Assembly: GCA_033064195.1 (NCBI GenBank) | Contig: JARBJD010000315.1 | Location: 18,645-82,644, forward strand | Source of the DNA: Blattamonas nauphoetae | Lineage: Eukaryota; Preaxostyla; Oxymonadida | Direction of reading: 5' to 3' | Length of the DNA: 64,000 nt | Shown here: in pieces, positions 16,073-64,000 of the stretch | How the letters are laid out: every line of letters begins with the position of its first letter | Position numbering within the stretch: the stretch's first letter is position 1 | Program-made: the position numbers and the translations under genes | The notes under the pieces: model-generated | Told to the model about the DNA's origin: nothing | Databases searched by the model: none | What the model saw: the letters and a program-made list of their open reading frames with translations, nothing else

Positions 16073-16276
16073 TCGAGATTAGATAATGTTGTGGTTTGAT
16101 CAAAGTCAAACTCCGTCACGAAGCAGATTCTGATCCAAATCCCCCGAAATTCCAATATGTTGGATTTTCATGACCAGAGAGTTAAAAAGAAGTTTTCAAG
16201 TGAAATGAAAGAAAGATTAATGATGATTTCAGATGAATTAAGAAGAAGTGGATAATCAAGACTGTTCGACGAGATT

Positions 16277-26544: not shown

Positions 26545-26938
26545 CTTCCGTTTTCTCCATTTCCATCTATCGTTGAATTCTTTGAGACTTCAGACATGAG
26601 CTGTTCTCTTTGTTTGGCTCATGAGCTTCGGAATTATGTATCGTGATTATTTTGCTCTTCTTTTCAATGATGTTGTTCAGTTGTCTCGTACTTGAATAAG
26701 GGGAGAGAAACTCGGACGAACAGCTCAAAAAGAGGTTGAACTAGTGTTGATCGGCCCTCATCGATCAATGGATCGGGTTCGATTTCATCAAGAAGAGTCA
26801 AAGGACACTTGGGAGAAATATATGATAGTGATCCAGCCACCCTCTATGTCTAGAGACTGTAAAAACACAATTTGAAACTTCCGGCGAAAGTGGAAATTTG
26901 GAGAAAATTGGAAAAAGTGCTGGGTCACGAAATTAAAA
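26545..26938. other. Intergenic, nothing recognised
   Basis: This is AT-rich sequence with stops in all frames between two plus-strand genes. I see no RNA gene signature. Confidence 0.4.
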
Positions 26939-27748: not shown

Positions 27749-28943
27749 TCGATTCTTCTTTTGTCTTCGTTTGCCTTGTTGCGCCATACGTCACACTTCA
27801 ACACTTGGTAACAATCGAGTCATTGTCGTGAATATCCAAGAGAGGTTCTCCAAAGTGAATAAACGAAAATGGTGTTCACTCTTCTAGATGAGATTGTCTT
27901 GAGGGCTGATCCAGCTTAAAACTCGAAATGAGTTCCCCAATGATCCATACAATCATCCATCTCATCAGAATCACGGTTTCACATTCATTTCAATTTCATA
28001 CTCTTCCGCAAATAAACTGAAAAGAATGGAGGGAAGTCGATGAAATGCGAAAACTGTGTTGTGTGTCATGGACAAATGCCTCTCGTCAATACAGATCGAA
28101 GCACAGAGAGATCCTGCCATGCTCCATCCACGAAAGACACTGTCTGATGTCAAGTGAGTGTTGTGATGGCGAAATGGGAGATGAATCGGCTGAAATGCGA
28201 ATCAGTTCGGAAATGTGAAATGAACTTTTTGAAATGCGTGTGAGTGATATTGAAAATGAAGATTCCTCTCGTTCCATGTGGTGTGAATGTCTGAATTGCT
28301 CAATCAAGTCAAAAAATGATTGGAATTGAGAGGAATGAAATGAGCAAAAGAAGAGAGTGAGGGGAGATGTGTCTGTAACACATCGAATGTCTCGACGAAC
28401 CATTCACATGACGTGCAATAAGGTGTACGAATAGTGGGATGAGATTGGGTTGAGGATTGTCTGTCTGGGCTCTTCCATCTGTTCTGTTTCCTTCGTTGGT
28501 CAATGGTCTAGTCCAGATGATGCCAGAGACATCAGAATCGTTGGTGGTTGAGTGTTGGGTGACGTGAGTAACTACACCAACAACCTCAAGCTCCAGATCT
28601 GTGAAGTGGAAGAATGATTCGTCTGTAAGAATACTGAAGACATTGATGAGTCAATCATGATCAACATAAACTTCCTGCGAAGAAGGCGAGTGAGTTGAGG
28701 AAAAGATGAGTGACGGCGATGAGAGTTCGTCCGACTGTGTCGGAGGTATTCATCGCGTTGGGTGAGATGGAGTGATGTGAATCGATGCCTGCGCCTTCTC
28801 AGAATGGATGTGCATGTGCAAAGTTAGAAAAGATATATGGAGATGGCTGTGTACGGATTTTTGAATGAAAAATGACATGAGAATGAATAGCTGTGGATCA
28901 AACGAAAGACGAGATGGATGTGATTTGGACAATTAGAGATGGG
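27749..28943. other. 1.2-kb intergenic region, nothing supported
   Basis: Only short frames occur, such as 28086-28403 (-), without coding-like features. The region lies between the 3' ends of the acidic protein gene (+) and the giant receptor gene (-). Confidence 0.4.
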
Positions 28944-31900: not shown

Positions 31901-34900
31901 ATCGCTCAATCAAACCAATCGAGAACGCCGTTCCACTCGGAAATCCTTCTCCAACAATCGTGATCTTCGCTTTCGTTTTCATCGTATCCCCAAGAACACA
32001 TTGAGAACTCGTGATTCGAGGTGGCGTCGCTGGCGTCAAAAACGAAATCGTTCCTTCAAGTGCTGCAATCACAACAGAATTCTTCACCGAAATCACTGAA
32101 TAGTTCGTTCCATATTTCAGTTCTGTGCTTCCAAACACCACTGCTTCTCCAGTCCCAGTCTGACTATCAGAAAATGTAACCGGAATCCTGATCTCATTCG
32201 ATGTCCCAGCTTCACAGACAACAAGCACAAATCCTGTCGCAATCATGTTCGATCCTGTCACAACTATCGAAATATTCTCAATCGTCGACAACGAAAGAAG
32301 AGCTTCCACTTTCGAAATCGTTGGACCAACTGGCGTGAGAAACTTCGGCGCTCGAACAAGAACAATCTCGTCTGACCCAACCACCGAATCCACAAGCGAT
32401 GACATCAAATATTCTGTGTTGAATTGAACTTCTGCCTCAAGTCCTGCTTTGATCGACCCACTCCCACTCTCAGCCGATGAGAACGAAACCAAGAATGTGT
32501 GCGAGCTGTTCAATGTCGCTTTGAATGTCTTCCCTTCGGGCAGTTTCGTCCCAACAATAGACACTTCAAACGTCGTTCCAGCACATGTCAATGGTGCGGT
32601 GATCAATGTCACAATCGGAGGATCAGGAACAACCAAGTCGGTCTTGTGAAGAATCACATTCACAGTCGACGAGAAGACACGCTTCAGCGAATATGTCGTC
32701 CCATATTTCACTCCACTTGTCCCCTCAACGTCAACTGCAACCCGAAGTTCCAGCGATGATGCAGATACAAAAGTGCATGCTGAAGACTCGAACACCTGCT
32801 CAGGAGAAGACGACAACGAGATTTCCGCTGAGAACTCATTCGACTCGTCCAGCTCTTCACAAGTCAGCACGAACACAACAAACTCTCGGTCCCCTGTCAG
32901 AGATGAAGAGATGTCTGTCACACGAGCGGGCGCTGGATCCACTTTCAATGTAACTGCCGCATTCACACCACACCGATATCCCGAAATCGAAAGATCTGTA
33001 ATCCGATATTCCGCTCCATACTTCATCTTTCCTTCCGATCCATACACTTCTTCCCACAACTCGTGGTTCGTCTGGACTTCACTTCCAACCAATCCTCCAA
33101 ATGTGCTCGACAGTCTCAAATCCGTCCCAGAAACATCTCCATCCGATGATCGCTCAATCAAACCAATCGAGAACGCCGTTCCACTCGGAAATCCTTCTCC
33201 AACAATCGTGATCTTCGCTTTCGTTTTCATCGTATCCCCAAGAACACATTGAGAACTCGTGATTCGAGGTGGCGTCGCTGGCGTCAAAAACGAAATCGTT
33301 CCTTCAAGTGCTGCAATCACAACAGAATTCTTCACCGAAATCACTGAATAGTTCGTTCCATATTTCAGTTCTGTGCTTCCAAACACCACTGCTTCTCCAG
33401 TCCCAGTCTGACTATCAGAAAATGTAACCGGAATCCTGATCTCATTCGATGTCCCAGCTTCACAGACAACAAGCACAAATCCTGTCGCAATCATGTTCGA
33501 TCCTGTCACAACTATCGAAATATTCTCAATCGTCGACAACGAAAGAAGAGCTTCCACTTTCGAAATCGTTGGACCAACTGGCGTGACAAACTTCGGCGCT
33601 CGAACAAGAACAATCTCGTCTGACCCAACCACCGAATCCACAAGCGATGTCATCAAATATTCTGTGTTGAATTGAACTTCTGATTCAAGTCCTGCTTTGA
33701 TCGACCCACTCCCACTCTCAGTCGATGAGAATGAAACCAAGAATGTGTGCGAGCTGTTCAATGTCGCTTTGAATGTCTTCCCTTCGGGCAGTTTCGTCCC
33801 AACAATTGACACTTCAAACGTCGTTCCAGCACATGTCAATGGTGCGGAGATCAATGTCACAATCGGAGGATCAGGAACAACCAAGTCGGTCTTGTGAAGA
33901 ATCACATTCACAGTCGACGAGAAGACACGCTTCAGCGAATATGTCGTCCCATATTTCACTCCACTTGTCCCCTCAACGTCAACTGCAACCCGAAGTTCCA
34001 GTGATGATGGAGATACAAAAGTGCATGCTGAAGCCTCGAACACCTGCTCAGGAGAAGACGACAACGAGATTTCCGCTGAGAACTCTTCCGAATCGTCCAG
34101 CTCTTCACATGTCAACACGAACACAACAAACTCTCGGTCCCCTGTCAGAGATGAAGAGATGTCTGTCACACGAGCGGGCGCTGGATCCACTTTCAATGTA
34201 ACTGCCGCATTCACACCACACCGATATCCCGAAATCGAAAGATCTGTAATCCGATATTCCGCTCCATACTTCATCTTTCCTTCCGATCCATACACTTCTT
34301 CCCACAACTCGTGGTTCGTCTGGACTTCACTTCCAACCAATCCTCCAAACGTGCTCGACAGTCTCAAATCCGTCCCAGAAACATCTCCATCCGATGATCG
34401 CTCAATCAAACCAATCGAGAACGCTGTCTTACTCGGAAATCCTTCTCCAACAATCGTGATCTTCGCTTTCGTTTTCATCGTATCCCCAAGAACACACTTC
34501 GAACTCGTGATCCGAGGTGGCGTCGCTGGCGTCAAAAACGAGATCGTTCCTTCAAGTGCTGCAATCACAACAGAATTCTTCACCGAAATCACTGAATAGT
34601 TCGTTCCATATTTCAGTTCTGTGCTTCCAAACACCACTGCTTCTCCAATCCCAGTCTGATCATCAGAAAATGTAACCGGAATCGTGATCTCATTCGATCT
34701 CCCAGCTTCAGACACAACAAGCTCAAATCCTGTCGCAATCATGTTCGATCCTGTCACAACTATCGAAATATTCTCAATCGTCGACAACGAAAGAAGAGCT
34801 TCCACTTTCGAAATCGTTGGACCAACTGGCGTGACAAACTTCGGCGCTCGAACAAGAACAATCTCGTCTGACCCATCTTCCGAATCAACAAGCGATGTCA

Positions 34901-37673: not shown

Positions 37674-37894
37674 CGGGATGTGGGGACTCGCAACCCGGTT
37701 TTTGTGTTTTATGGGGTTTGATCAATCTTCCCTGTCCTTATTCTTGAGCAGACTCATATTTCGATATTTGTTCAACTGAAGTGGATGCGTGACAGGAAGG
37801 AACTTACTGGACGAACAATTCTAACATCAGTATCTCAGCGAAAAGAAAACACGAATAAAGGGCAGTCAAAACCCACAAGGACAGCAAGAAGAAA
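37674..37894. promoter_or_regulatory. Divergent promoter region
   Basis: This 221-bp gap lies between the start codons of the giant receptor (-) and the polytopic membrane protein (+). No specific motif was identified. Confidence 0.4.
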
Positions 37895-48025: not shown

Positions 48026-51000
48026 ATGCTCTTTCTTCTTCACTGTCTATATTTGACCCTTTCATTACCTCAACCTCTCCATGATCATGTCGCTTCGCGT
48101 TCTTTGACTGCCATTTTCACAGCTAGCGACAACCGTCTCGACTCAAACATTCACACACCCATGGATGAGATTCTCCTTCCATCTGGCCATTTCCACGCCT
48201 CCAACTTTGGTCTCGCCTCTGCCAAACTTGAACTGAGAGGGAATGCAACAACTATATCTCTGTCACCAGGAAATGACGAATCCGCATCGATTTTCATTTT
48301 TGAGAATTCAACAATTTCACTCAAGATTCTGGATTTGAATTGCAGAAAAATAGGAACTTCTGTTGCACGACTGAGTCGCTCCTCGTTATCAATCTCGACA
48401 TGCACGATCACATCAAACTCCACCATATCGCCATTCGTCATCGAAGGGAGTGATGAAAATGATGATAGTTCGCTTTCATTCATTGATTGCTCACATATCT
48501 CTTCATTATCCACAATCCTTCTCCCGCTTGTCCAATATTTGCCCGAATCGTCCTCCATCGCCTGTCATGGCCTCCATCTCACGAATTCACATCTGATTCG
48601 AGGAACAGGCCCACTTTGCGACATCGAAGGACTCTCAGTGTCATCGACAAAGAATGGACAGTTTTCATCTCTCCTCGCCTCATCAATTCTTACCAACGTG
48701 ACCAGCTGTAGCCGCAGCCGAAATGACGTCTCCGCAACAGCCCATCAGTCTCTGAAGATCGTCGGATGTCATGTTCATGATTGCTCTAACCACCTTTATG
48801 GGACAGCCTGCCGCGACATGAACGCCGGAGGCAGTCTGCTCAGCCACAACACATCGTTCCTCCGCTGCACCACAGAAGCACCAACACACCAAAACGAGTA
48901 CTTCTCCATTCGAACCGAACTCTCGCCGACTGAATCGTCCCACTTCTTCCGCCTCTGCACCTTCAAAGACTGCACCACAATTGACCTTTATGGAGGGGCA
49001 CTTCACTTACAAAGCCCAACATCGGATCTTATTATCGAAGACAGCTCATTCGAGTCATGCATGACCGACCGCCTTGGGATGGCAGGAGCTGTCTACCACG
49101 ACCCTGTTGGCGGGATAGGTTTGAAGACGACACTGAAAGCATCCTCGTTCGTTAAGTGTTCTGCACCACAAAATTCCCCAGGGTCGCTCTATGTTCGTGA
49201 TCCGAGGGCCGTCACGATCTCGGATTGTGTTTTCCTCGACTCAACCTGCAGAGACAATGGCGGAGCACTTCAGCTTCACCAAAGCAATCCTCCACAAAAG
49301 GGAGCGGTCCTTTCGAACTGCCTCTTTCAACGCTGCCGAGTAACGTCTCAGTTCCCTGAGCGGAGACTGGGAGGCGCCTGTTATTTTTACAACCACTCGT
49401 CAATCAGACTGGACTCACTCTGCTTTCTGGAGAATAATGCCACCGCAGGTGGAATCGATATCTACTTCGAAAACTTTAACGACGCTTTCAACAAAGACAC
49501 AGTCACGAATTGCGTCTCCACATCGACACCAGCCGAGAAGAGATTCTTGCCAAGCTCGCACAGTGATCTGCTTCGAGATCTCCCCGAACCGCCGACTCCC
49601 TCTGTCGACATTGAACAAAATGAAAATCAGGCGGTAGTGACGGTTAACATGGATGCAGTTGTGTCAGGAAAGATCCTTGTTCTCGTCTCAAATGAGAACG
49701 GGAGTCGGACAGAAGAAAATGGAAAAGCCCCACGAATCGGTCGACTGGTTTTAATCGATTTTGTCCAAAATTCGAGTGGATCGACAATTGTTTCGTGTGG
49801 TGAGGATGGTCTTCTCCAGCTCCCTCTCACCGACTATGAAGTCGTCACATCTTCGTTCTTCCCAAAACCAGCCCTCCTTGCCGTTAATCAACCGACTCTC
49901 ATTGAAAATCAGACGAAAGCAAAAGTGACATTGGTTGGGCTGATGTTGAAAGGGGAATACACCCTGACACTCTCTGTGAACTCGTCTGAGACAGACACAA
50001 TGACAGTGATTGTGACATTTGCCTCAAATGCTGGAACGCTGGAAGAGATTGTGTATGACCCAGAAACACCTACGAACGCGAAACTGTCGTTTAACACGAT
50101 CTATTCGGTGGTGAAGATGGAGAAAGATGGAGAGAGTGTGTTGTTCAAGAAAGGTCTCTTCTTCACAATTGATCCAGAACCTGAGCGACTGACAGAAATC
50201 TCAGTTGGAGACATCAACCACACACCTTCAAGCACGACAACACTACTCACCTTTTCGTCACGCGCACTGAAGAGGGAGAAAGAATACACACTCACTCTCG
50301 TTTCAACAGCCGCACAAAACAATCCTTCTCACGAAAGAACAATCAAAGTCATGCCCGACGAGAATGGAGAATTGAAGGCATTCACAGCCACTCTGTATCC
50401 ATTCGAGACGGAAGATGAAAAGAAGAAAAGCCAACTGGATTTTGGAGTGGAGTACACAGTGACATCATTCCTCCTTGGCACCGCACCGATCTTGTTTGAC
50501 GAAGAAAAAACCACTTTCACGACACCACACGAACCACCACGAATTGAAGAATGTGAGGAGCCAGAACTGAGTGGAGATCGAAGCAGTGTGCATGTTGTCT
50601 TCTCCGGACGAGCTCTGAAGGATGGACTTGGGCATGTGAATGTCACCGATGGAGAATCGTTCTGGGAATCGACATCAACTCTGGTCTGCTCCTCGACAAA
50701 TCAATGCACAGCCACTTTTCTCACTGGAATTGTTGAAGACACGACGAAACTCGGCTTTGGGCAGAAATACTCGATTGTCTCTTCTCGTTCCATGCCTCCG
50801 CTGTTCGTCGTGAACGAGAATGTGAAGTTGTCAGTTCCGAAAGCACCGATTGTGACAGAAACAGAAACCGAGCTGAACGCATCGACGCATCTCTCATTCC
50901 GAATTGTGATGGATGGAAGCGACCTTCCATCAACAGGAGTATTCACTGCTTCATTGGAAGGAGTGAGCGAGACTGTTGAGATCACATTCGATGGAAACGA

Positions 51001-52642
51001 AGGGAAATCAGACTGGATTGAGATGAGAAAGAACACAGCCATGCAGTTCAACAAAACATATACCCTTTCAACCCTGATCCACTCTGAAAGTGGGAAGGAA
51101 GATGAGCATGTGCTTTGCAGTGGAGTCGAAATAGAAACACCAGAAGGACCGACTCTTCTTCGTGTTGGTGAGGTGAAGTTGGAAGGACAAGAAATGGAGA
51201 CAGTCGTGATGGAAATTGAACTGAAGCGGATGCCCGTCGGATCGTTCCAAGTCGAAGTTATCGACAGCTTGGATCAGTCGCAGACGAAGATCGAGCTGAC
51301 CATCGCAATTTCGGATGTGTCTGACACAACAGCAGTGATTCGCGAGTCTGTTGGGGAAGCCAAAACGCTGAAGTATGGACACTCTTATGATATTGTTGGG
51401 ATGTCGAGCGCAGACATTGATGTTTCCATTCCGTCGTCTCTCTCCTTCTTCGTCCCAAATCTGCCTCACTTTGAATCAATCAGTGTCTCCCCCAACACAC
51501 TCGGCACTGCAATCCTCGTCTCCTTCTCTGGCTCGAACTTTGTTGGCTCGTATGCTGTGAAACTGAACTCAGGCTTCTCCTTCGTTATCGCTGCCTCATC
51601 ACCAACCCAAGCTGCCTCCTCTGAAGTCCTGCTTGGCTGGTCAGATGGCCTTCCCTTCAACACGCAATTTCCAGTCTCAACAATCACATACACCTCATCA
51701 CCGTCTCCCTCGTTTTCGGTGAAGCCTGGTCTATCGCTCGACACTCCACCAAAGCCGACCGAGCTGACATTATTTGTGAATTCTCTTTCAACCGACTCGA
51801 CACGCTTCTGTGGAGGGAAGAGTCGACCATGTTCATCGTTTGATCCAGCGTGGGTGATTGTGAAAGGGATTGATGTGAAACGAGCAACACTTTCCATCAT
51901 CGACTCTGCATCACTCAGCACACCAATCACGATTTCAGACAAGATGATCGTTCTTTTCTCGAATGGAGGGAACCACGAACCAACACTGACAATCCCATCA
52001 TCAGTGTCGATGGGAGATGAGAAAGGGATGGTTGTTGTGAGGGACGCAACATTGGACATTGTGGATGTCGGTGTTGACATTGAATCCACTCTCTCGTCAT
52101 TTATCTTCCTCTCAGCGATCGACTCAACCATTGTTTTGAAAGATGGCTCGTTTTCTGGACACCCATCAGTGAACTCACCACTCACCAACGATGACGAGGA
52201 AGAAGAGAACGATGTGTGCGGCTGGTCGAGTGGGATTCTGCAACTCGACAACTCCTCAACCAAAATAACGTTCACCGTTCTGTCGAATCTGTCACAAGGA
52301 GCAGTCAACATGAAGGGAGGAACTCTGAAGATCGATACCAGCACGTTCCACGACAACATTCCCACAATCTCATCCTTCCTATCAGCTCGACGAAACATCC
52401 ACTGCTCAGAAAATGGATTGATTGAGATTGGGAGTCTGAATGGGGGAGATGGAACAGGCGACACGAAATCGGGATTCATCTCGTCGGAAGACTGCACAAT
52501 CACATCGACGGTGATCAGCCCGAACGCACCTCTCTTCATCCCCACACTCTCGTCCGAGTCATCGTCCAGTTTGGACAAGAAGACAGGGACATTCTCGATT
52601 GTGATTTGTGGATCGACACTGATCCTCTGTTTGTCAAAGTGA
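48026..52642 (+). CDS. Second beta-helix/IPT receptor, C-terminally truncated by a retroelement
   Basis: I start at the ATG at 48026, which gives a clean signal peptide (MLFLLHCLYLTLSLPQP); 1538 residues follow. The N-terminal half is a parallel beta-helix with NHLYGTACRDMNAGG near 256. The centre (about 530-1240) is IPT/TIG-like repeats (PTLIENQTKAKVTLVGLMLK, HEPPRIEECEEPELSGDRSS). A second beta-helix opens with FCGGKSRPCSSFD near 1260. Its end, SENGLIEIGSLNGGDGTGDT through TFSIVICGSTLI, is almost identical to the receptor at 28944-37673. Similarity stops abruptly at about 52621, and a foreign frame adds LCLSK and a stop. The transmembrane helix and pseudokinase tail of the homologue are therefore missing. 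The product, if made, would be secreted or non-anchored. Confidence 0.85.
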   Translation: MLFLLHCLYLTLSLPQPLHDHVASRSLTAIFTASDNRLDSNIHTPMDEILLPSGHFHASNFGLASAKLELRGNATTISLSPGNDESASIFIFENSTISLKILDLNCRKIGTSVARLSRSSLSISTCTITSNSTISPFVIEGSDENDDSSLSFIDCSHISSLSTILLPLVQYLPESSSIACHGLHLTNSHLIRGTGPLCDIEGLSVSSTKNGQFSSLLASSILTNVTSCSRSRNDVSATAHQSLKIVGCHVHDCSNHLYGTACRDMNAGGSLLSHNTSFLRCTTEAPTHQNEYFSIRTELSPTESSHFFRLCTFKDCTTIDLYGGALHLQSPTSDLIIEDSSFESCMTDRLGMAGAVYHDPVGGIGLKTTLKASSFVKCSAPQNSPGSLYVRDPRAVTISDCVFLDSTCRDNGGALQLHQSNPPQKGAVLSNCLFQRCRVTSQFPERRLGGACYFYNHSSIRLDSLCFLENNATAGGIDIYFENFNDAFNKDTVTNCVSTSTPAEKRFLPSSHSDLLRDLPEPPTPSVDIEQNENQAVVTVNMDAVVSGKILVLVSNENGSRTEENGKAPRIGRLVLIDFVQNSSGSTIVSCGEDGLLQLPLTDYEVVTSSFFPKPALLAVNQPTLIENQTKAKVTLVGLMLKGEYTLTLSVNSSETDTMTVIVTFASNAGTLEEIVYDPETPTNAKLSFNTIYSVVKMEKDGESVLFKKGLFFTIDPEPERLTEISVGDINHTPSSTTTLLTFSSRALKREKEYTLTLVSTAAQNNPSHERTIKVMPDENGELKAFTATLYPFETEDEKKKSQLDFGVEYTVTSFLLGTAPILFDEEKTTFTTPHEPPRIEECEEPELSGDRSSVHVVFSGRALKDGLGHVNVTDGESFWESTSTLVCSSTNQCTATFLTGIVEDTTKLGFGQKYSIVSSRSMPPLFVVNENVKLSVPKAPIVTETETELNASTHLSFRIVMDGSDLPSTGVFTASLEGVSETVEITFDGNEGKSDWIEMRKNTAMQFNKTYTLSTLIHSESGKEDEHVLCSGVEIETPEGPTLLRVGEVKLEGQEMETVVMEIELKRMPVGSFQVEVIDSLDQSQTKIELTIAISDVSDTTAVIRESVGEAKTLKYGHSYDIVGMSSADIDVSIPSSLSFFVPNLPHFESISVSPNTLGTAILVSFSGSNFVGSYAVKLNSGFSFVIAASSPTQAASSEVLLGWSDGLPFNTQFPVSTITYTSSPSPSFSVKPGLSLDTPPKPTELTLFVNSLSTDSTRFCGGKSRPCSSFDPAWVIVKGIDVKRATLSIIDSASLSTPITISDKMIVLFSNGGNHEPTLTIPSSVSMGDEKGMVVVRDATLDIVDVGVDIESTLSSFIFLSAIDSTIVLKDGSFSGHPSVNSPLTNDDEEEENDVCGWSSGILQLDNSSTKITFTVLSNLSQGAVNMKGGTLKIDTSTFHDNIPTISSFLSARRNIHCSENGLIEIGSLNGGDGTGDTKSGFISSEDCTITSTVISPNAPLFIPTLSSESSSSLDKKTGTFSIVICGSTLILCLSK

Positions 52643-52651
52643 GGAAGAGTG
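52618..52651 (+). repeat. Terminal inverted sequence of the DIRS-like element (outer copy)
   Basis: This 34-nt sequence is repeated as a perfect reverse complement at 52926-52959. It starts where receptor homology ends, so it probably marks the element's terminus. The paired copy would be the internal complementary region typical of DIRS elements. Confidence 0.75.
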
Positions 52652-52925
52652 AGAATCCTTCCACATCTGAAGTGAGAAGTTTGGTAATGGGTTAGATTCT
52701 TGGGAGCAGGAAAGTGAGATGCGATGAGAGCTGAAGAAGTTTCATTCAAGAAGGTAAGCCACTCAACAAAACAAACGATACGCTCCAAGATAGACAACAT
52801 GAAAAAACAGAAAAGACCAGACGATAGTCAATGAATTTCAACACACACAAAAAGAATAGCAGAAGATAGATGAATGAAAGAATACTTCGAAGATAGATGC
52901 AGTGACCGTCGGGGTGGGTGGGTGG

Positions 52926-52959
52926 CACTCTTCCTCACTTTGACAAACAGAGGATCAGT
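52926..52959 (-). repeat. Internal complementary copy of the element's terminal sequence
   Basis: This is the perfect reverse complement of 52618-52651, lying directly downstream (in element orientation) of the recombinase frame. DIRS internal complementary regions occupy this position. Confidence 0.7.
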
Positions 52960-52968
52960 CTGCACTGA

Positions 52969-53995
52969 TCATGTTCGTCTGAGCTCGGAAGAGTGAGGGC
53001 TTGGGAGAACTGCTTCAGACTCATCGTGTATTTCACTTTCCGACTGAGGGTTGCATTGTGTGTCGGCGAGTGTTGGGAGTAGATAATGCGTTTCCATGAC
53101 GCCAGACTTTGCGGACAGGCGCACTGAATGTGCAGTGGACCCAATTGACTCCCCACTCATGACCCGAGACGAGATGCCCGCGTGCTTCAACGAATAGGGC
53201 GAGAACTTGGTGACGTCTATTCCCGCTGATTGCATAAGAGGTCTGACCAAACCTCTAACCTCCTCCACTTTCCTCTCCCGCATCGTCACGTCATTGAAGA
53301 AGATCGATGTTGTCTCCCAACCTGTTGGTCGGAGAGAACGAATGCGTTGGCTCGTCCTCTGAAGAACATCTCCAACGCGGAGCTCGCTCGGAAGGTTGTC
53401 TTCCCTCAACACTACACGCGAAAGTCCGACCTGAACCTTTAACTCAGCCAGGAGAATCACTGTCTGTCCCCCTTCTGCTACCTGGATACTCCCACAAAGG
53501 ACTGAAGTCATTTCAGTGAACCTCATTCCATGTTGGAGGATGAGGCTGACTGCAAGAAAGGACTGCCATTGATTCAAAGTGGATGCTCTTGCCTTATAGT
53601 CTTTTAGATGAGGGATGAGAATCTTCGCGTCGAAAATTGAGTTGTACTTCGAGCGAGTAGGGTTCCTTTTCTTCTCTCCTCGAATGAAGAGTGAGACTGC
53701 TGATGACTCACTCACATCGTCTATCCCCAAATGCTTGCACAAGAAACTCAAGGCAGATCTTGCCACCTCCTTCGTTCTTCTACCTCCACCTCGCTGAGCC
53801 AAAAAAGTTGGCAGCTTCCACATCGGAAATCTGTGTCCACTCCTTCCCCGCCTGTACACACCATCTCACCCATCTCCTAATCTCTCCAGCATACTGTGCC
53901 CTCGTTCTCTCTGCGAAGGCCCCTTTCCAACTGCTGATTGCCTCCGCCGACAGTCCCTTCATCTCTCCGAGGGTGTCCCAGATCTCCTGGGAACG
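52969..53995 (-). pseudogene. DIRS tyrosine recombinase (frame interrupted at a homopolymer)
   Basis: The N-terminal SAM-like core-binding domain (AISSWKGAFAERTRAQYAGE, VEAANFF) is encoded from about 53995 to 53801. The chain continues in a different frame from 53859 to 52969 (LAQRGGGRRTKEVARSALSF onward). The switch falls on a run of six T (six A on the plus strand, 53801-53806), equivalent to +1. The catalytic domain shows the first Arg (LILQHGMRFTEM), the Lys/His region (FSPYSLKHAGISSRV) and the nucleophile Tyr (METHYLLPTLAD). This could be a mutation, an assembly error or a programmed shift. The start overlaps the end of the RT-RNase H frame, as in other DIRS elements. Confidence 0.75.
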
Positions 53996-55710
53996 AAGAA
54001 TGCTTTCACCATCCCAGCTGGGATGCTCGCTCCTGCTGCCTTGACTCCAGGTCCCTCGACTAGAACGTCCGTGCTCCTTCCCAGTGTCACTTTTTTCGTC
54101 GCCAATTGCTTGAGCTCTGAATGACCTGGGAGCGTGGCCCAATCGAATGCCACTACGATTCCTTCGCATCCGTCCCGTTCCATCTTCCTCACTGTCTTGA
54201 GGAGGAGCGGGTTGGGTGGGAAGGCCCAGACGACCTCCTCTCTCCAATCGACCATCAGCCCGTTCGTGGCTATCGCCTGTTCGTTTCTCTTCCACGCACA
54301 AAAGCGTTCTGTCTGCGTGTTCCACGCGTTGGCGAACACATCCAGTGTTGGGATGACCTTCCATGTCTGACACACCATGCGATATAGATCCTTCCTCAAC
54401 TGATAATCCCCTCCGTCCTCTCCGCGTGACAACTCGTCTGCCTGACGATTGTCCCGTCCTGGGATATGGACTGCTCTCATTCTGTGTTTGTGTTGCGTTA
54501 GATACGACAAAATGTTTCGAAGGGTAGGGAGGAGTGAGACGGCACAACTCCTCCGGTTGATGTTGAAGACAACGGTTGAATTGTCCGATTTGAGGAGGAT
54601 GTCCGTCCCGTCCTTCAAACTCCTCTCCTTCTGCATCTCTTCGATGATCCAACTGACCGCAAGCATCTCTCTCCAATTGCTGCTCTGCTTCCTCTCCTCC
54701 TCGCTGAATGTCCTCTGATGAAATGTGTCCTCCTTTCCTTTGGAGCTGACGACTGCGCCCATTCCCCACTCCGATGCGTCTGTCGTGACGACCACGGTTG
54801 GAACGAAAGGTCGGATGCTGGCTTCCATCTCCCTCTGCAATCGTTCCTTCCACCATCTGAGCTCCTCGATCTCTGTGTCCCCCAGAGCTCCTCGGTTGTG
54901 ATATCCTCCGTCTCCCACGATCTCCTCCTTCCTCCTCGTCAGGTTCCTTGTTCGGACGAACGTCTCCGCCTCGACGATGGCGAAGGACTGGAGGACACCT
55001 ACGAGCGACGCCAGTGCGTGCCCGACGCACTGGCGCTGGTGTCTGCACTGTGTCAGCCTGTCCCTCACCTTCACGAACGCCTTCTTCCGCTTCATCTTCG
55101 TCGCGGCCACCATCATCGACTCGGTCTTCCAGAGGAATCCGAGGAACTCCAGCTGCCTTGAGGGTTGGAGGATGGACTTCTCCTGATTCACAGTGAATCC
55201 TAGTCTGTCCAATTCCAGCAATGTCAGCAGAATGCTCTTCTCCATCTCCTCCTCCGATTCCCCCATCAGCAGAATGTCGTCCAGATAGATGACCAGCCTG
55301 ATCCTCCTCCTGAGCTTTGATACGACCTCCCTCATCATCTTGGTGAAGATGAGTGGTGAGAGACTGAGTCCAAACGGGAGAGTTGTGTGGCTGTAGTAGA
55401 TATTTTGGAAGGTAAAGCATAGATACTGGGCTGAGTCGCTGTGGATTGGGACGTGTTGATATGCCAACCGCAGGTCGATCTTTGCCAGATAGTCTCCAGT
55501 CCTCATCGTGTCCACAATTGTCGTCCAGCTCTCCATCTTGAAGTGCGTCGGCAGCAAGAGCCTGTTCGCTGGCCGACAATCGAGAATCTTTCGATACGTT
55601 CCATCCGACTTCGGAACCAAGAACGTGTTGTTGAGAAGAACCACTTGGGACAATATTTTTGAGATCATCGATCGCAATGGAAAAAGTTCGAGCGACATTT
55701 CGATTTTCAA
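53959..55710 (-). CDS. DIRS-type reverse transcriptase-RNase H
   Basis: This frame has 583 residues. Reverse transcriptase motifs are in order: NNTFLVPKSDGTYRKILDCR, KIDLRLAYQHVPIHSDSAQY, TTLPFGLSLSPLIFTKMM, and the catalytic YLDD (VIYLDDILLMGESEEEM) with LGFTVNQEKSILQPSRQLEF. An RNase H domain follows: TDASEWGMGAVV, SSNWREMLAVSW, LKSDNSTVVFNINRR and IPGRDNRQADELSR, which keep the acidic metal ligands. This RT/RH type, with a tyrosine recombinase downstream, is characteristic of DIRS elements. The catalytic motifs look intact. The N-terminus is short for a DIRS RT, which fits 5' truncation; the true start is unknown. Confidence 0.88.
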   Translation of the reverse strand: MKIEMSLELFPLRSMISKILSQVVLLNNTFLVPKSDGTYRKILDCRPANRLLLPTHFKMESWTTIVDTMRTGDYLAKIDLRLAYQHVPIHSDSAQYLCFTFQNIYYSHTTLPFGLSLSPLIFTKMMREVVSKLRRRIRLVIYLDDILLMGESEEEMEKSILLTLLELDRLGFTVNQEKSILQPSRQLEFLGFLWKTESMMVAATKMKRKKAFVKVRDRLTQCRHQRQCVGHALASLVGVLQSFAIVEAETFVRTRNLTRRKEEIVGDGGYHNRGALGDTEIEELRWWKERLQREMEASIRPFVPTVVVTTDASEWGMGAVVSSKGKEDTFHQRTFSEEERKQSSNWREMLAVSWIIEEMQKERSLKDGTDILLKSDNSTVVFNINRRSCAVSLLPTLRNILSYLTQHKHRMRAVHIPGRDNRQADELSRGEDGGDYQLRKDLYRMVCQTWKVIPTLDVFANAWNTQTERFCAWKRNEQAIATNGLMVDWREEVVWAFPPNPLLLKTVRKMERDGCEGIVVAFDWATLPGHSELKQLATKKVTLGRSTDVLVEGPGVKAAGASIPAGMVKAFFVPRRSGTPSER

Positions 55711-56020
55711 ATATCCTTTTATCCTTCACACATTCAGATTGATTGCATTTCTAAATGGAGATTCCAGACGTTCTGACCTCCAAAGTCGTTCTGTCAATGA
55801 ACGTTGTGTGATCAAACCATAATCGTGCGTTTTTGTCTATCTTCTCTGATTGAATCGTTTTTTTTCGATTTTGCTGCCTGTGAAATATATCGTTGTCACG
55901 AATGAAAGAGTTTTCAATAAATGTTGTTCATGATTGTTCATCTACTTAGTCATTTCAAATCAATCCGTTTCAATGATGCAAAAGACAACGTATTCTGGAA
56001 CTATGTGCACAGTTTCAGTA
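55711..56020. other. Junction between the DIRS copy and decayed sequence
   Basis: No gag, no terminal repeat matching the other end and no gene were found here. The left boundary of the element cannot be placed. Confidence 0.35.
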
Positions 56021-56024
56021 AAAC

Positions 56025-57990
56025 ATGGTTCATGGAACCAATACAGTGAAATGGATTAAAGATGAATATGTGTTCTTCGACGCCTGGAGTGCTTATGTGC
56101 CCTCGCCGTTGTTTTCGGAAGCACGCATGTTGCCGGAGCAATTATCGAAAAGCTGTCGCCTCTGCGCGTCTCTTGAAACTGCATTGGACGCTGTTCTGGC
56201 CGCTCTCCGCGGTCCGTCGGTGGATGGCACAGAAAAACAGGAATTTGGGAACTTTGGATTGCCTCTGCTGTTGTCGTTTGGTCTGCTGTCCCTTCTCCAC
56301 CGCCGAACGTGGTGTCGCTGTTTGACGAGCTGGTTCTGCCGTTTCTGTCCTCTTTCCGATCGATGCTGTCATTCTTCCACTCGTTGCTCGCTTTCTTCTC
56401 GCCGAACATGCCGTCGCTGGTATTCCCTGCTCTGCACTCGCTGAGCCATCTGCACGCCACTGCTAGGTGTTGTGCATGGGGTTCTGGCGACGTCCTCGGA
56501 AACGCTGTTGCAGATGAACTTTCTGCTGTTCTGGTCTGAACTGCAGACGGCACTGAGCAGTTTCGCTTCGTCGATCGAGCAAGACGCGTCGCTTCATGTT
56601 TCGCAGCCTCTTTCGGAGTTGGTGGAGAAGTGGGTTGTGGAGGAAGGCCTGCGTGCGATGTGTGCGTTGGAGCTGTTTCACTTTGTGTTGGCGTTGGACG
56701 GAGACAAACAGTCGGAGCTGTCGAAACTGCTGCACACCGACTCGATCTGCACGGAGTTCATTTTGCTGGCGAATCAGCTGGTGACTTCACTGCGCACGTT
56801 CTTCGAAGCTGACCGCTCTGTCGCCCCACTCGCCACACCCGCCCTTCCTCGCTAACTTCCGAAGCCCCGCACGCAGCCGCACTGCTTGTCGATTGGATTG
56901 TGACAGGCTGTTCCAGACGAATGTTGTTCTTTCGGAAGGAGGAGCTACGATTGTTCGGATTGAGTTTGGGATGCTTCTCCAAACACTCTGCTGGTTTGTT
57001 CATCTGTCGCTGGTGAAGCTGGACGCTCTGATGCAGCTGCTTCATCTGACGCTGTCGTCGTTCATCCCACACCCTCTCGCAAATCTGGTGCCCACATTCG
57101 CACCTGAGCACGAGCCTCGCCAGATCGGGCCGAAGACCCGGCACTTCCTTCTGTCGCCGTGGGTGGAGACAGGGCGGAGTGGAGAAGGGTTGGTAGGGGC
57201 TGAGGGGCGGGCGTTCCCGCTGAGTCTGAGTGTGGAAGTGTCGACGACTGCGATTGTGTTGATTCTGATTCACAAAATTCACCGAAAACCTTCGAACCAG
57301 CGATTCTGGGCACGGCTCTGCCTTTGCTGTTGTCGGTGCGTCTGTTGTCGCCGTCGATGGATGTGTGCTGGCAGATGTGGCATCGGAAGAGAGGTAGAGG
57401 ACTTTGCGATTCTCTCGTTGTTGGACTTGACCACTTCGTAGATTATCTCCACATGCGACGGCACAGAACTAAATTGGTGGAAAGTGTGAATTGGATTGTG
57501 GTGTTGGGGAGGTGGTGGACGATGTGGTTTGTGGGAATGAAGTTGGAGAGCGCGAACTGAACGAGCTGTCCAAATTGAAGATCCCGTCGCTGCTCAGCCC
57601 TCTCTTCCCCATCATCACATCCACCACTCGCAGCATCAGCCGCTTTGCCTGAAGTCCCTCGCTTCGTTTCTATCATCACTCGGTGCTGTTCACTGATGAG
57701 GTTCTGATGTCGCTGGCTCGGATTCTGCGCTCGCTGCTTGGGACGTTCGACGATAAGTGGAGGACAATCGAGTCGATTTTCATTTCTGTGTGGACGTTGT
57801 TGCTCATAGTGATTGGAGGAGTGAGTTCAGCAGAAAAGAAGAAACTGACGAGAATGATCGTGTGGACAGGGCTGTTGGAGATGTTTGGAGAATACATCAA
57901 TCGCTTCTGGACGACACAGATTAAAGGCGAAGTCCTTCGCATTGTCCCAATACTCCAGCGTCGTGTTCTCGTCGAAATGTGAGTCTTCAA
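56025..57990 (+). pseudogene. Decayed protein gene, multiple frameshifts, family not recognised
   Basis: Good coding composition hops between frames. 56025-56290 (PEQLSKSCRLCASLETALDA) is followed by 56309-56460 (VSLFDELVLPFLSSFRSMLS) and 56490-56855 (FLLFWSELQTALSSFASSIE). Further pieces are 56893-57140 (LSLVKLDALMQLLHLTLSSF), about 57410-57560, and 57683-57860 (EVLMSLARILRSLLGTFDDK). Stops and frameshifts separate them with no plausible introns. The pieces are Leu/Ser-rich helices, suggesting one formerly long helical protein. Confidence 0.55.
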
Positions 57991-58900
57991 AGAAAATCAG
58001 GTCTGGCTGATTGAAGTTGTGTGTGCCGCCTCTTTCAGCGGCTGTGTTCTTCCGAAAGATGCATCGGTGGAAAGTGTGGTCGGAATAATGCGTTGAGATG
58101 CACCTCCCTTCTTCCCTGCCTAGTTGTTCTCGAAAAGCGAGTCGAAGGCACGGAGGACGTGAAACGTTCCACTTACTAAAAACAACACCGCTCCCAGAAA
58201 ATGTCTGATCGGAGAACTGGCAGTTGGAGACTTGAATGAAGGCAATTGAATCAGCTTCTTGAAGTGTCCGAGTTCGCGAGGCTCCATCCAGCGATGTGAA
58301 TTCGGAGTTCGAATCATCTGTGCTCACAGAATGATGAGTGATGATCTGGTGTTCGCTGTCGGGAAGAGTGGTGGCTTTGTCACACGAGATATTGGACGAA
58401 TCAATGACGAGGCGAGGATTGGGGTTCAGATTTCCTCGCAGGTCCATCAGAAAACATGATGTTTTGTGCAGTTGATTGCGAACGTGGTGCGTGTGGTGGA
58501 CCACAATCGGCGATGCCAGCTGGCCCAGTCGGAGAACAGAGTCCTAAATGACACACAGGATGTCTCCACAATCGCACATCGCGACGGCGAGGACAGTGTC
58601 GGAGAGAGGGATGGCCAGCTTTGCGTTCGTGCAACCAAGAGACTCCACATCGAAAATCAGAGCGTCAAGCGAAAGCGTTGAGTTCACAATATTAAAAGGC
58701 AGTTCTGATGAGTCCTGAGCCGAGAAACTTCACTTGAGATGGGTTGCTCTCTGTTGAGTCGCACGAGTGTTGACTTCGTGATTGATGTTCTTGTTTCTCC
58801 CTTCAGTGTGAGGTCCACAGATTCAAAATGTTGGAATGCTCATCCGTTCTGCTTGTTCTCGAGTCTGATGATAGGTTGCGAATCATACCCGTGTCTCTGC
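57900..58900 (-). pseudogene. Beta-helix surface-protein relict
   Basis: Minus-strand fragments carry family features: NSTLSLDALIFDVESLGCTN (about 58660), IDSSNISCDKATTLPDSEHQ (about 58370), IAFIQVSNCQFSDQTFSGSG (about 58230) and FHRCIFRKNTAAERGGTHNF (about 58040). They resemble the N-terminal beta-helix of the intact receptors (ENSTISLKILDLNCRKIGTS). Stops and frameshifts interrupt them. The 3' end merges with the plus-strand pseudogene near 57900. Confidence 0.6.
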
Positions 58901-58919
58901 CTCCTTGATTCCTGCCAGA

Positions 58920-59760
58920 ACCCGAAGAGAAAGAAAATGACGGATAGAAGGGGAGGAAATGAACTGCCGAAGGTGTTGTGTGCAGATGGGATGCGGCGAA
59001 AGGCCCTTCTTCTGTCGATCAGCCCTCACAAAAGTGGCAATTGTTTCGATGTCGCCTGTGGAGAGGAGTGAGGCATCAAAGGGAAGAGCTGGATCGAAGT
59101 CCTTCCTCCCTTACCATCGATACTCTTCGCAACGAACGAGTCCTGCTCGTCCAGAGACTCGCTGCGGGAGTGCGGCGAAGGAGTCGTGCTGCCAGCGGGT
59201 GGAGATGCAGACGAGCCGCGGTTGCCAGGCGTGGTCGGTGTCTGGTCAGCCCGATCGCGTGTCGACTGTTTCCAGTTTTGACGAGTTCTTCGGTGTTGAC
59301 CAGAATCTGCTCTGGTTCAGATAAGACTGCGACCGCAGCGTCGAGAGCGACAGCGCGTTCGTCAGCCCTCACGAAGTGCTGAATCTGCGGCGAAATCGGC
59401 GGGTTGGCAGGAATATCGTCGTTTTCTCTTTTTTGGACTTTCGCGTGCTTGTATCGCCACCGTTTCTCTTGGAGGGGACAACAAAGAGCGACGAAGAGAT
59501 CGAGTTTTGGAGGAGGTCCGTTTGGTTCGGAAAGAAGAGGGGTGTCCCGAATGCGTGGGTGGATGAACAGATACTGGAAAGGGAAAGAGACGGGACAATG
59601 GGTGGATCTGGCGCTGGAGAATCAGCAGGTAGACGAGATCTGAAAGAGATGGGGATGGTTGTGATTGTTTGGTCGGAGAGACAGATGAAACCGGTTGAGG
59701 TGGGGTGGGAGGGACTCTGTCGTCGAGAGACGTATTGCTGGGAGAATCGTGAGAAATGAT
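58920..59760 (+). pseudogene. Degenerate coding-like fragments, unrecognised
   Basis: Short frames with coding-like composition (for example 58960-59070, GNELPKVLCADGMRRKALLL, and 59376-59759) alternate with stops. No family could be assigned. Confidence 0.3.
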
Positions 59761-59929
59761 GGAGACGGTCATCGACGTGCATTGTTCCTTACTATAGTGA
59801 TATTCGTGATGGCCATTCGGTTTTTCTTGTTTTGATTGTATTTCGGGTGATGTTGACCTGAATTCCAGTAATTGACGTGCTCGTCCGCGAGTCACCGCGC
59901 GATGGAAATGGTGAAACAAGTCTGATAAA

Positions 59930-61100
59930 CTACAGTTGAACAAACCGGCTTATTCTGAAAAATAGCCATCCACGATGATCCAAGTTCCACAAACTTGTAA
60001 TAAACACATTTTCAACATCCGAATATATCGGACGAGATCCTCCCGAGTCAAGATCGTGGTAAACTGGCGGTTGTCCCGTCTGCTTCGTCGAGTATCTTCT
60101 GACCGTGGTTGGCAATAAAGTTGTACGCGCTCAACGTGAAGAGCTTCATCGGAAGAATGGGTGGAGAGGGAGAGGGCTCGACTCTTTGTGAACAAGAACC
60201 CAGCCTTCGCAACTCGCATGTCTCAGCTGAAGCTGTGAAGAGGCGTCCATCCCAGTGCTGTTGTATGAACACAGCAGGTCTGGGTCGAGAAACTGGTTTT
60301 GGGGAGATCGATGGGAAGATGCAGAACGGAATGAAATGCGCGTCAGCTACCGGGATCTTCGCGTTGATGTAATTCCTCAGAAGTGTGATTCTGTGGAAGG
60401 GAGGTCAGGATCAACTCAAGAAGGGAAGAGTTCAGAGTGTGGTCTGACAGACGGTGCATCAGAAAAGTGGCGATGAGGAGGAAGAACAGCTTTGTTCAGG
60501 CGAATGAGGGTGGTCGAGGAGAGCATGCGGGAGGAACGACGAAGGGTTGCATTGGTCTTGCAAAGAAAGAGGTGGATGAGAGTCCAATCCCGAAATGGAC
60601 GGAAGTGTCATATTTGGCGTATTTTTAAGGAAAGAATAGAGTCAAGAATGTGTTGGAGGAATGGAGGGTCGTTCGAAGGAAGCGGAGGGTGAGTAAACCC
60701 GAGTTGGAGAAGAAAGAGAGAACCTGCTGATGACTTGTGACGACCAAATGGTACGTATGTACACGGAGTTGCTGGAGGGGAGAGAAGAGGGATGGGTATG
60801 ATATTATTTTGGTGAAGACTGTGATGATGAACATGAAAGGGGAATTGAGGAGGATGAGACGAAGCAAACGACGTTGGGTCCTGGAGCGAAGAGTAAGGAT
60901 TGAACAGCCGAAAGAGGGAGATAATTGGAGGTATAGAGAAGATATTAGAGGCAGAGACATAACTGAACTCAATTTGGAAGGGTTGTAGTTGTTGTTGAAT
61001 GGTATTGAGATCGTTGGGTGGTTGAACGTGACCTAGATCAGAATCATCAAAGTTGACTATCTCGAATGGAACATCTTCAGCATGTGTTTCAATAATGGTT
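59930..61100. other. Decayed or non-coding stretch
   Basis: Short overlapping frames on both strands occur without motifs. I could not support a gene here. Confidence 0.3.
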
Positions 61101-61183
61101 TGTTCAGGGGAATATCAAGGCCGGCTTGGAAATTGTGGGCGAACACGACTGAGCCATCGGGGAACTGATCCCAGGAGACGAAG

Positions 61184-61555
61184 ATGGAACAATATGTTCA
61201 ATTGAAGGTGAATGAGTTTGTGGTGGAGACGAAACTGTGGTTGGAGAGGCAGACTGACCATTTGAGATCGATTATTGTTGGGAAGGGTGTGGATGTCCCC
61301 ATTCGTGATTGCAGTCACAGTAGTTGCTTTGTATTGAACTGTGTGATTCAGGGAGGAGATTTGTTAGTCTTGAATGGCCTTCCTCATCATTGGCGGAGAC
61401 CCTTTGATTTGAACATCACAGATTTGAAACGATATCAACTTTGTGTGTTTATAACGTCTCTTCGGGAGAGACTTCGCACGGACGGGGAGTTGTTATCCAT
61501 TGGAAGTGGCGGGAGACCAGTTCAGATAATAAGCGACAGGATGGGTTTGCGATGA
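61184..61555 (+). pseudogene. Possible short gene or fragment, 123 codons
   Basis: The frame starts MEQYVQLKVNEFVVETKLWL and contains SSCFVLNCVIQGGDLLVLNG, strand-like and faintly similar to the beta-helix family. It ends 60 bp before the minisatellite. Given the decayed surroundings, it is probably a fragment. Confidence 0.3.
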
Positions 61556-61614
61556 GAGTTGAGTGCTTTTGTTATCTCTCGTCCAAGAGCTATGATTGTC
61601 GGAGAAGATTGGGA

Positions 61615-62107
61615 TGGGTGGAGGGAGGAAGGAGGTGAATTTGCGATGGGTGGAGGGCGGGAGGAGGTCAATTTGTGATGGGTGGAGGGAGGAAGGAGGT
61701 GAATTTGTGATGGGTGGAGGGAGGAAGGAGGTGAATTTGCGATGGGTGGAGGGAGGAAGGAGGTGAATTTGTGATGGGTGGAGGGAGGAAGGAGGTGAAT
61801 TTGTGATGGGTGGAGGGAGGAAGGAGGTGAATTTGCGATGGGTGGAGGGAGGAAGGAGGTGAATTTGCGATGGGTAGAGGGAGGAAGGAGGTGAATTTGC
61901 GATGGGTGGAGGGAGGAAGGAGGTGAATTTGTGATGGGTGGAGGGAGGAAGGAGGTGAATTTGTGATGGGTGGAGAGGAGGAAGGAGGTGAATTTGCGAT
62001 GGGTGGAGAGGAGGAAGGAGGTGGGTGCGATGGGTAGAGGGAGGAAGGGAGGTGAATTTGCGATGGGTGGAGGGAGGAAGGAGGTGAATTTGCGATGGGT
62101 GGAGGGA
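61615..62107 (+). repeat. Minisatellite, 32-bp unit, about 15 copies
   Basis: The unit combines the G-rich runs gggtggagggaggaag and gaggtgaatttgygat and recurs about every 32 bp from 61615 to 62107. Most differences are the y position (c or t) and one-base length changes near 61970-62045. Because 32 is not a multiple of three, all frames stay open on the minus strand, producing a spurious Pro/Ser/His-rich 197-codon frame. Confidence 0.9.
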
Positions 62108-62250
62108 GTTCTCACTCGAATAGAGTCAGAGAAGTTGATGACCCAGACTTGTGGGTCATTGAAGACAGATTTCTCAAATCTTCATACAACCCCCAAGAAA
62201 TATTCAAGCAAAACTCGAAAATTTTATCCCCATCATATCTTCTCGCAACC

Positions 62251-62536
62251 ATGGAAGCTTATATTACAAAACCCAAATCAACCATCAGCACGCGCCGGAA
62301 GGAGATTTACGACCTTCTCGTCAAACAACATCGCGACTATCCAGCAGCACCTCTCATCAAAGCTCTGGATAGTCGTCATGAACTCATACCAATCAAGGAG
62401 ATTGTCCTTGCTCATTACAATAGTTTGGCTTTCTTTTCTCTCATTCTTTCTCTCTTTAGATAAATTCACTTCACTTATTTCGTCTTTAACTCATTTACAT
62501 CGTGAAATGAGGTGCAAAGACGACAAGGTGAAATGA
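62251..62536 (+). CDS. Small two-exon gene, 82 residues
   Basis: Exons 62251-62422 and 62460-62536 are joined by a 37-nt GT-AG intron with a pyrimidine-rich acceptor, phase 1. The product starts MEAYITKPKSTISTRRKEIY and is helical and basic, ending in LTHLHREMRCKDDKVK. I do not recognise it. Codon composition and the clean short intron argue for a real gene, although it lies between a minisatellite and a hairpin cluster in a decayed neighbourhood. Confidence 0.5.
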
Positions 62537-62540
62537 TGCA

Positions 62541-62575
62541 GTGTGTCTCCCAAGTACTCTCACTTGGCGAGACAC
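62541..62575 (+). other. Perfect 14-bp hairpin with one bulged base
   Basis: TGTGTCTC-CCAAGT pairs with ACTTGG-(C)-GAGACACA around a six-base loop. It starts 5 bp after the stop codon of the small gene, so it would be in the 3' UTR or terminator position. Confidence 0.7.
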
Positions 62576-62676
62576 AGGCTGTTGGTTTCGACGTCGAGGA
62601 GGGGCATATAACTATGCCCGCCCCGATTCGACAGAATCGGTGGGAGACCTCGGAATCCCACTCGACGTCGACCAGC
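62576..62676 (+). ncRNA. Cloverleaf-like structured element (candidate RNA)
   Basis: The outer stem 62587-62597 pairs with 62660-62670 (11 bp), extended by GG/CC and GGCT/AGCC pairs. Inside are three hairpins: 62601-62618 (7 bp, loop taac), 62622-62639 (7 bp, loop gaca) and 62640-62659 (5 bp). It lacks tRNA signature loops. Whether it is transcribed is unknown. Confidence 0.4.
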
Positions 62677-63240
62677 CTCAAAACAGGTTACTTTTCCTTT
62701 TTCAATCATTCTCACAGAAAATAAACATCCTCGAAGACACTGAACTGATGAAAGCAATAGAAGATAAAACGTCACCAAGCTGCGAAAACCAGAAAAGAAA
62801 CCACAGAAGAGGGTTAAGAAACGTATGCTCACACTCCTTTTCACCCAATTCTCTTTACACTATTAGAAAAGCCAGCAGTTGACACACTGGACGACGATGA
62901 CCTGCTATTCCTCCTCAGCAGGTCAGATAGTCCATCAACTCCGGACAACTCCCTCGAAACCATAGCAACCGAAACACACCACATCGAAACAAGGCTCCTT
63001 GAAACAACGAAAGGAGCTTCACCGTCAGCTAGTTGAGGAAGGAAAACCAAAATCTCTTACTCTACTTTCTGCAAACAAACAAAATTCCTGAAAAAGCAAC
63101 AAAAGACCGACCTCTGTTCCTTTGTGAACGAGGCAAATATTTACAAAAGAAACATTAAAAGCACAAAACAAAAACTCACAGAAAAAGAACAAAATGAACT
63201 AAAACAATGAAAACACAAAAATAGCCGAAACACAAAGAAA
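62677..63240. other. Stop-rich stretch upstream of the transposase remnant
   Basis: This is AT-rich sequence with short frames. It may contain the decayed N-terminal part of the transposase gene, but no motif is recognisable. Confidence 0.3.
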
Positions 63241-63775
63241 TTATTACAATTCATCCATTTCATCCATAGACGATGACACATTGGTCATCGTCATGGACTT
63301 TAAAGAAAATTGGTCATTACCTCTTTCCAATGACCAAGTCGGACACGATTTTATCTAAAACTTCAGTTTCTCATCTCTGCATTACTTGTTTCACCTCACA
63401 GAATTCTGTGATCAAAAACATATCACAACTTTATTTCCCTGTTCTTCTCATGATCACCGTTTTGTTCAAGAATGTCTTGCCGATTTATTTTCTCTTGATT
63501 CATACACTTCCAAGAAACACATCACTGTATTTACTGATACTGGTCCGCATTTTAGGAACCAGTATGTTCTCAGTTACTTTCTGTCTTCTCAAAATCCCTT
63601 GTTTTCAGGGAAGAAAATTCAGTACTGTTTCTTTTCAGGCAGCATGGGAAAAACTGCTGCGACTCCAGGTCAGGTCCTTTCAAATTTTGTTTCCGCATCA
63701 CCTCACTGAACCAATCCGCTCCTCGGATGACCTTATTGATTTTTCACTTCACATCTCCTCCAATTGAATGGGAAT
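63241..63775 (+). pseudogene. DDE-type transposase remnant
   Basis: DTLVIVMDFKENWSLPLSND (from about 63270) resembles the first catalytic block (D-F-x-E-N) of a widespread eukaryotic DDE transposase group. In another frame, VFTDTGPHFRNQYVLSYFL and YCFFSGSMGKTAATPG (63515-63675) match the second and third blocks (usually D-x-G-x-H-F-R and F-F-x-x-x-H-G-K-x-x-x-D). A frameshift near 63350 separates the blocks, and the third acid is doubtful. The copy looks inactive. The superfamily was not assigned. Confidence 0.5.
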
Positions 63776-64000
63776 GACGGAAATTCCGTTCATTCCTTCC
63801 ACCGGTGTGTCTCTTTTTGATAGTTCATCTTTTTTATTCACTTTAGACATACTGTCTTCCCAGACAGTCACTCATATTCCGGGTCATAATCACCGGTCTG
63901 AAGGAATCCGGATTTTCCGATCTCCCTTGACCAGGGCCCCTGTTTGTGTGAACGCGTCTTCATTTGACTTCTTATTGCGTTTTTCAGAGAGACAAAGGGT

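Follow-up and report, generated by a model that had tools for sequence, protein, structure and literature searches.

The window, the whole 64,000-nucleotide stretch of Blattamonas nauphoetae DNA analysed here (C241:18645-82644), ends where its contig ends, and it was searched against an assembly of 88,311,006 bases in 837 contigs. In its last part, the upstream half of a receptor gene (48026..52642, plus strand) is followed by a DIRS1-like retroelement, which in turn is interrupted by the start of an ~11.3-kb transposon (55647..64000). A paralogue of the receptor that is free of the element, and that has a membrane helix and a kinase-like tail, lies at 28944..37721 on the minus strand and represents the empty site. 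Elsewhere in the window, two minus-strand frames carry SET and a MYND finger (14285-16078) and a MIZ/SP-RING finger (16689-19961).

The receptor and its element-free relatives

The receptor frame extends from stop to stop from 47996, with a Met at 48026 and a closing stop at 52640-52642 (1,548 codons), and its ectodomain is open for ~1,540 codons. It tracks the paralogue up to TFSIVICGSTLI and then reads LCLSK-stop versus PCGLSLEVFE in the paralogue; the host letters continue until ~52623, and the final codons, including the stop, are element-derived. The earlier note had placed the divergence of the two genes at the edge of the element, and frame comparison agrees, the divergence coinciding to the base with the element terminus. 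Its statement that the element "beheads" the receptor names the wrong end: the tail is lost, not the head. The upstream frame starts with a hydrophobic N-terminus (by eye) and, as had been proposed, lacks the membrane helix and the kinase-like tail, whose likeness to kinases is a sub-threshold match to the C-lobe. Pfam gave no named domain for the N-terminal part, and the predicted structure of the first 525 aa (mean pLDDT 53.6, from two sequences) contains many short strands. A structure search with this model returned 0 matches at E<=0.001 and weak ones otherwise; the 50 rows listed are mostly enzymes and tailspikes, which we take to be beta-helices.

Does the receptor simply end at this point? 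Twenty receptor loci were compared, and nine of them reach the site, two being the insertion itself (the window and C585); the matches of the other 11 end earlier. All of the seven element-free relatives (C357, C634, C19, C394:38900, C576:5715, C167 and the window paralogue) continue in frame beyond the site and through the membrane helix (by eye), and no element-free paralogue was found that stops there. For this reason, the window receptor ends where it does because of the insertion, and not at a normal gene end. The kinase-like tail is complete in one frame in C634, C394 and the window paralogue, and broken in C357 and C576. In C19 (L040) and C167 (L043) the membrane helix is kept and a long lysine-rich tail replaces the kinase-like one, so that tails appear to have been swapped within the family.

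Large families contain decayed members, and the two broken tails among the seven relatives fit a truncation by ordinary deletion, or an early-stopping paralogue, with the element merely nearby. This account has a vanishingly small probability, because the divergence is the element terminus itself, the same terminus is found in unrelated flanks, and all the relatives read on. Alignment to the empty sites instead shows an insertion with an exact boundary.

The retroelement and its copies

All the parts of the element lie on the minus strand. The recombinase-side terminus, an inverted terminal repeat (52617..52700), matches the opposite terminus of the full copy C23 at 89% over 84 nt. It is followed by an internal complementary region (ICR, 52926..52990), in which both termini are joined as in a circle, by the catalytic part of a tyrosine recombinase (52972..53865), the frame of which is broken near its upstream end in the window and open in other copies, and by a reverse transcriptase with RNase H and a Dam-type methyltransferase (53962..55646), cut by the nested insertion at 55646. 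The 34-nt inverted pair on which the earlier note relied is exact (52618-52651 and 52926-52959, 100% complementary), and its arms are element DNA, one in a terminus and the other in the ICR; a search of the window with the 34-mer, at up to three mismatches, found 2 matches versus 0 in 100 shuffles.

A DNA search with 52600-52970 located nine places where this stretch is present almost in full (all 21 first-look candidates were scored). At eight of them the 34-nt pair recurs inverted, so that it is not unique host sequence, and at the ninth, C823, a variant particular to that copy takes its place. Counting C585 with the window locus and C46 with C23, whose flank is repeated, leaves seven independent sites, and the mapping of these copies defines the termini. 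Full-length copies of ~4.7 kb are present in C23 (4,699 nt), C150 and C823, while in C257, C31 and C181 the element is split into pieces by other DNA, and C46 matches up to reference position 4299. Beyond the core, the ICR equals the copy's own left end in nine copies, with a one-letter difference in C181. The frames of C150 are Gag-like (399 codons), RT and YR; in C823 and C46 an RT frame of 796 codons overlaps with a YR frame, of 1,095 and 1,093 codons respectively. Compared with C46, C23 and C150, the window element shows 99.6-99.9% identity, and its insertion would thus seem to be recent.

The assignment to the DIRS type, already made in the earlier note, is supported by Pfam matches above cut-off for the window's RVT_1 (3.3e-24) and RT_RNaseH_2 (3.2e-8), by a Cre recombinase match of the C823 recombinase (phmmer, E=4e-4), and by the inverted termini and the ICR. 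A Dam match at the expected place after RNase H (E=0.0026) is sub-threshold, and a Phage_int_SAM_1 match for the recombinase (E=0.0036) is below the Pfam cut-off. The window's own 260-aa recombinase gave no integrase match in Pfam, PHROGs yielded a chance-level match and no recombinase, and a single-sequence structure model of the recombinase was unusable (mean pLDDT 33). Recombinase relatives in the genome account for 147 match rows, and C114 holds a partial relative at 68%. The box of tyrosine recombinases usually reads HxxR. Here, it reads YSLK in the window (recombinase at 52972-53751), C150, C823 and C46, FSLN in C181, and YAPK or YSLK in three more distant copies (L078-L080).

With the DIRS1-like elements described in the relevant parts of Piednoel et al. 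2011 (PMC3266345), the present element shares Gag-like, RT-RH-MT and YR frames with a long YR/pol overlap, inverted termini, an ICR near the YR end, the absence of a target duplication, and a size of 4.7 kb within the published 3974-6283 bp. It differs in its core, ATC in ACTGATC, whereas 23 of the 28 published elements begin and end with NTT, and in its YSLK box, the published one being HSTR (present in 13 of 28); the same source states that this motif varies. PAT-type elements, treated there as well, also are retroelements encoding a YR, but they have split direct repeats; a PAT-type element was ruled out here because the termini are inverted. Among the papers searched, none dealt with DIRS together with oxymonad genomes or with Monocercomonoides.

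The exchange point

The earlier note had suggested recombination at a small core common to the receptor and the element, ACTGAT (52618..52623, plus strand), and a crossover test in which the circle junction letters were taken from each copy's own ICR bears this out at all of the seven sites. The possible exchange positions are 0-6 for the window joined to C732 (the contig with the opposite flank), 5-9 for C150, 5-7 for C31, 2-7 for C23, 5-7 for C257, 1-7 for C823 and 2-7 for C181. Every site allows positions 5 and 6, and no other position is shared by all of them; in other words, the exchange fits one base within TGWT, which in the window places it after 52622 or 52623. A single core imposed on all copies gave no common crossover position, because C823 failed.

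The host triplets in columns 5-7 are ATT (window/C732), TTC (C150, C31 and C257) and ATC (C23, C823 and C181), so that the host differs from the ATC of the element at four of the seven sites. In C150, C31 and C257 the ICRs retain TGATC while the recombinase-side junctions read TGTTC, and therefore the junction letters are those of the host. Further, the variants beside the core in C257 and C823 are mirrored in their own ICRs, the core being kept, as templating by the ICR predicts. These alignments show that integration can go ahead when target and junction triplet differ. In the published model, a 3-bp junction meets a target identical to it; table 3 of the same paper (PMC3266345) contains elements with unlike start and end triplets, and tolerance of a mismatch is thus not wholly new, being implicit in print.

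Joining the flanks of each site (150 nt per side) restores receptor sequence at several of them. The joined flanks of the window and C732 align to the paralogue at 96% over 99 aa, across the joint; those of C150 align over 2471-2557 of the paralogue at 53%, and those of C31 over 101 aa at 38%. At these three receptor sites the alignment reveals no target-site duplication, and in the same test the C823 joint, which has no receptor similarity, also is an open frame. In C150, C23, C257 and C181 no frame is open from end to end of the 300 nt; the C257 joint matches the receptor in part, and those of C23 and C181 do not match it. Other DNA separates the flanks of C257 by 28 kb, and the left flank has a separate receptor-like match in opposite orientation, so that their pairing is less certain. 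As for an allelic empty site of C150, none was found: its 401-nt flank is present once as a whole, and the remaining 39 rows match over shorter lengths, in many cases to receptor relatives.

A probable displaced tail and the nested transposon

Where is the rest of the receptor? The window holds reference positions 1-3034 of a full copy (52617-55646), and positions 3026-4699, with the complementary break, are found in C732 and C576; C394 has positions 3871-4699, at which point the contig ends. The outer flank of all three reads ...GCAGACTGAT|TCCTTGTGGACTGTGG..., which is receptor sequence 3' of the empty site, so that the search for the displaced part located a receptor tail behind the other end of the element. 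Its reading frame stays open for 420 codons in C732 and C576, where it passes through WWLPVAIVVGLVLLGLIVIVLVCC and into a tail whose partial similarity to a protein kinase is sub-threshold; in C394 the frame breaks after 9 codons. The earlier note had regarded the membrane helix and the kinase-like tail as lost; they are absent from the upstream frame, as stated there, but the tail would be displaced rather than gone, still present ~16 kb downstream.

The DIRS element breaks at 55646 because the ~11.3-kb inverted-repeat transposon inserted there. The ends of this transposon, GGG[A/T]CAATATTTTTGA in general form, are GGGACAATATTTTTGA and GGGTCAATATTTTTGA, and the end that lies beyond the window is seen at C732:8603. 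The two DIRS half matches overlap at reference 3026-3034, and the DIRS letters ACTT are found on both sides of the transposon as a target duplication; the alignments thus show one element nested in the other. Pfam gave no identification for five frames of the transposon, the single sub-threshold match being CSTF_C (0.004). A tandem array with a period of ~64 bp, visible as self-matches, occupies 61609-62108 within it. Stretches of the gene cluster at 24690-37784 recur in C732:10272-14900, rearranged and in other orientation, at 84-96% identity.

No contig spanning both receptor halves was found in the assembly, and the link from C241 to C732 passes through a transposon whose ends each have at least 40 matching places (the best 40 of 154 and 158 candidates were scored). 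The halves might then come from different genes, if two relatives had each received a DIRS insertion and both insertions had been cut by transposons of one family. The repetitiveness of the transposon is consistent with this, as are the presence of the tail side in three contigs and of the front side in two, and the behaviour of C585, which demonstrates that a contig can switch partner at its end. That contig (15760-27916) leaves the nested transposon for unrelated DNA and not for the DIRS remainder, perhaps as an assembly chimera in a repeat. Such an origin would require the same receptor site and the same DIRS break twice, and C732:1-5610 is 98.2% identical to window 58411-63990, though copies of the transposon are alike anyway; two separate genes are, on balance, very improbable. 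We infer that the front in the window and the tail in C732 would form one locus.

The most convincing explanation, which we hold with high confidence, is that one gene of a large receptor family was the target of a 4.7-kb DIRS1-like retroelement. The element would have entered as a circle whose junction was templated by its own ICR, and the tyrosine recombinase would have exchanged ACTGATC of the circle against ACTGATT of the receptor, neither duplicating the target nor removing host letters. The ~11.3-kb transposon would have followed later, duplicating ACTT. The outcome would be two open receptor halves ~16 kb apart at one locus, an ectodomain with an element-borne stop and a membrane-helix/kinase-like tail. 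The circular intermediate and the order of events are what we infer from the junctions. For Dictyostelium DIRS-1, the pertinent part of a 2017 review (PMC5633606) likewise describes a circle and ICR model and three partly overlapping frames, and it presents the scheme of replication and integration as proposed, not fully proven.

Insertions within the receptor family

Another intriguing question is what the insertion does to the receptor. From its sequence, the upstream half would be predicted to give a secreted product, and one may ask whether the insertion is functional, a membrane receptor having been turned into a secreted form that is retained. The long open ectodomain, with its hydrophobic start and without a membrane helix, is compatible with this. 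In C585, where the upstream half occurs a second time with the same insertion, the last 0.9 kb of the receptor is nevertheless 4 nt shorter than in the window and reads partly out of frame, through either a natural change or an assembly error. Moreover, the insertion looks recent, and therefore the open frame is no sign of selection. A functional role is, all considered, unlikely.

A further point concerns the choice of targets. With 350 nt per side, five of the seven sites match receptor proteins at E<1e-3 (window, C150, C23, C31 and C257); shortening the flanks to 150 nt per side removes C23 and leaves four. C823 and C181 have no receptor match with 350 nt per side or with longer flanks. Control stretches gave none in 17 of 700 nt (20 were asked for, and three contigs were too short) and none in three of 350 nt, with Fisher p = 2.6e-4 for 5/7 and 0.001 for 4/6 without the window's own site; the control positions were picked by hand and not drawn at random with weighting by length, and sensitivity is lower for the shorter stretches. 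In the Dictyostelium element, the same part of PMC5633606 describes a preference for own copies and gathering at centromeres, unlike the receptor family found here. A second receptor relative, at C150:109466 (L030), is also interrupted by this element, its insertion point lying 15 bp downstream from the window site in aligned coordinates. Among sister DIRS copies, none of four recombinase-side flanks (301 nt each) matches the receptor at E<0.01; in the sister copy C386, a short kinase-like frame and a stop lie near the site (by eye).

The receptor family is itself a large target. A search with the receptor tail gave 1,445 first-look candidates, of which the best 100 were scored, and at an estimated ~5 kb each the family could make up to 8% of the genome; 22 of 91 window tiles of 700 nt match the receptor, and therefore its genes cluster. 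Survival of insertions in a redundant family is the simplest account of the excess of five in seven. That the DIRS family is biased towards receptor genes, repeatedly making tail-less or split receptors and helping to diversify the surface repertoire, is a reading to which we give only a small chance.

Collectively, the filled sites narrow the exchange down to one base when set beside the element-free relatives and the ICR that templates the junction, and the value of this locus is the completeness of its evidence on how DIRS-type elements integrate. It also offers what appears to be a recent example of a retroelement splitting a surface receptor between its outer and its inner half, and it raises the testable possibility of an insertion bias towards the receptor family.
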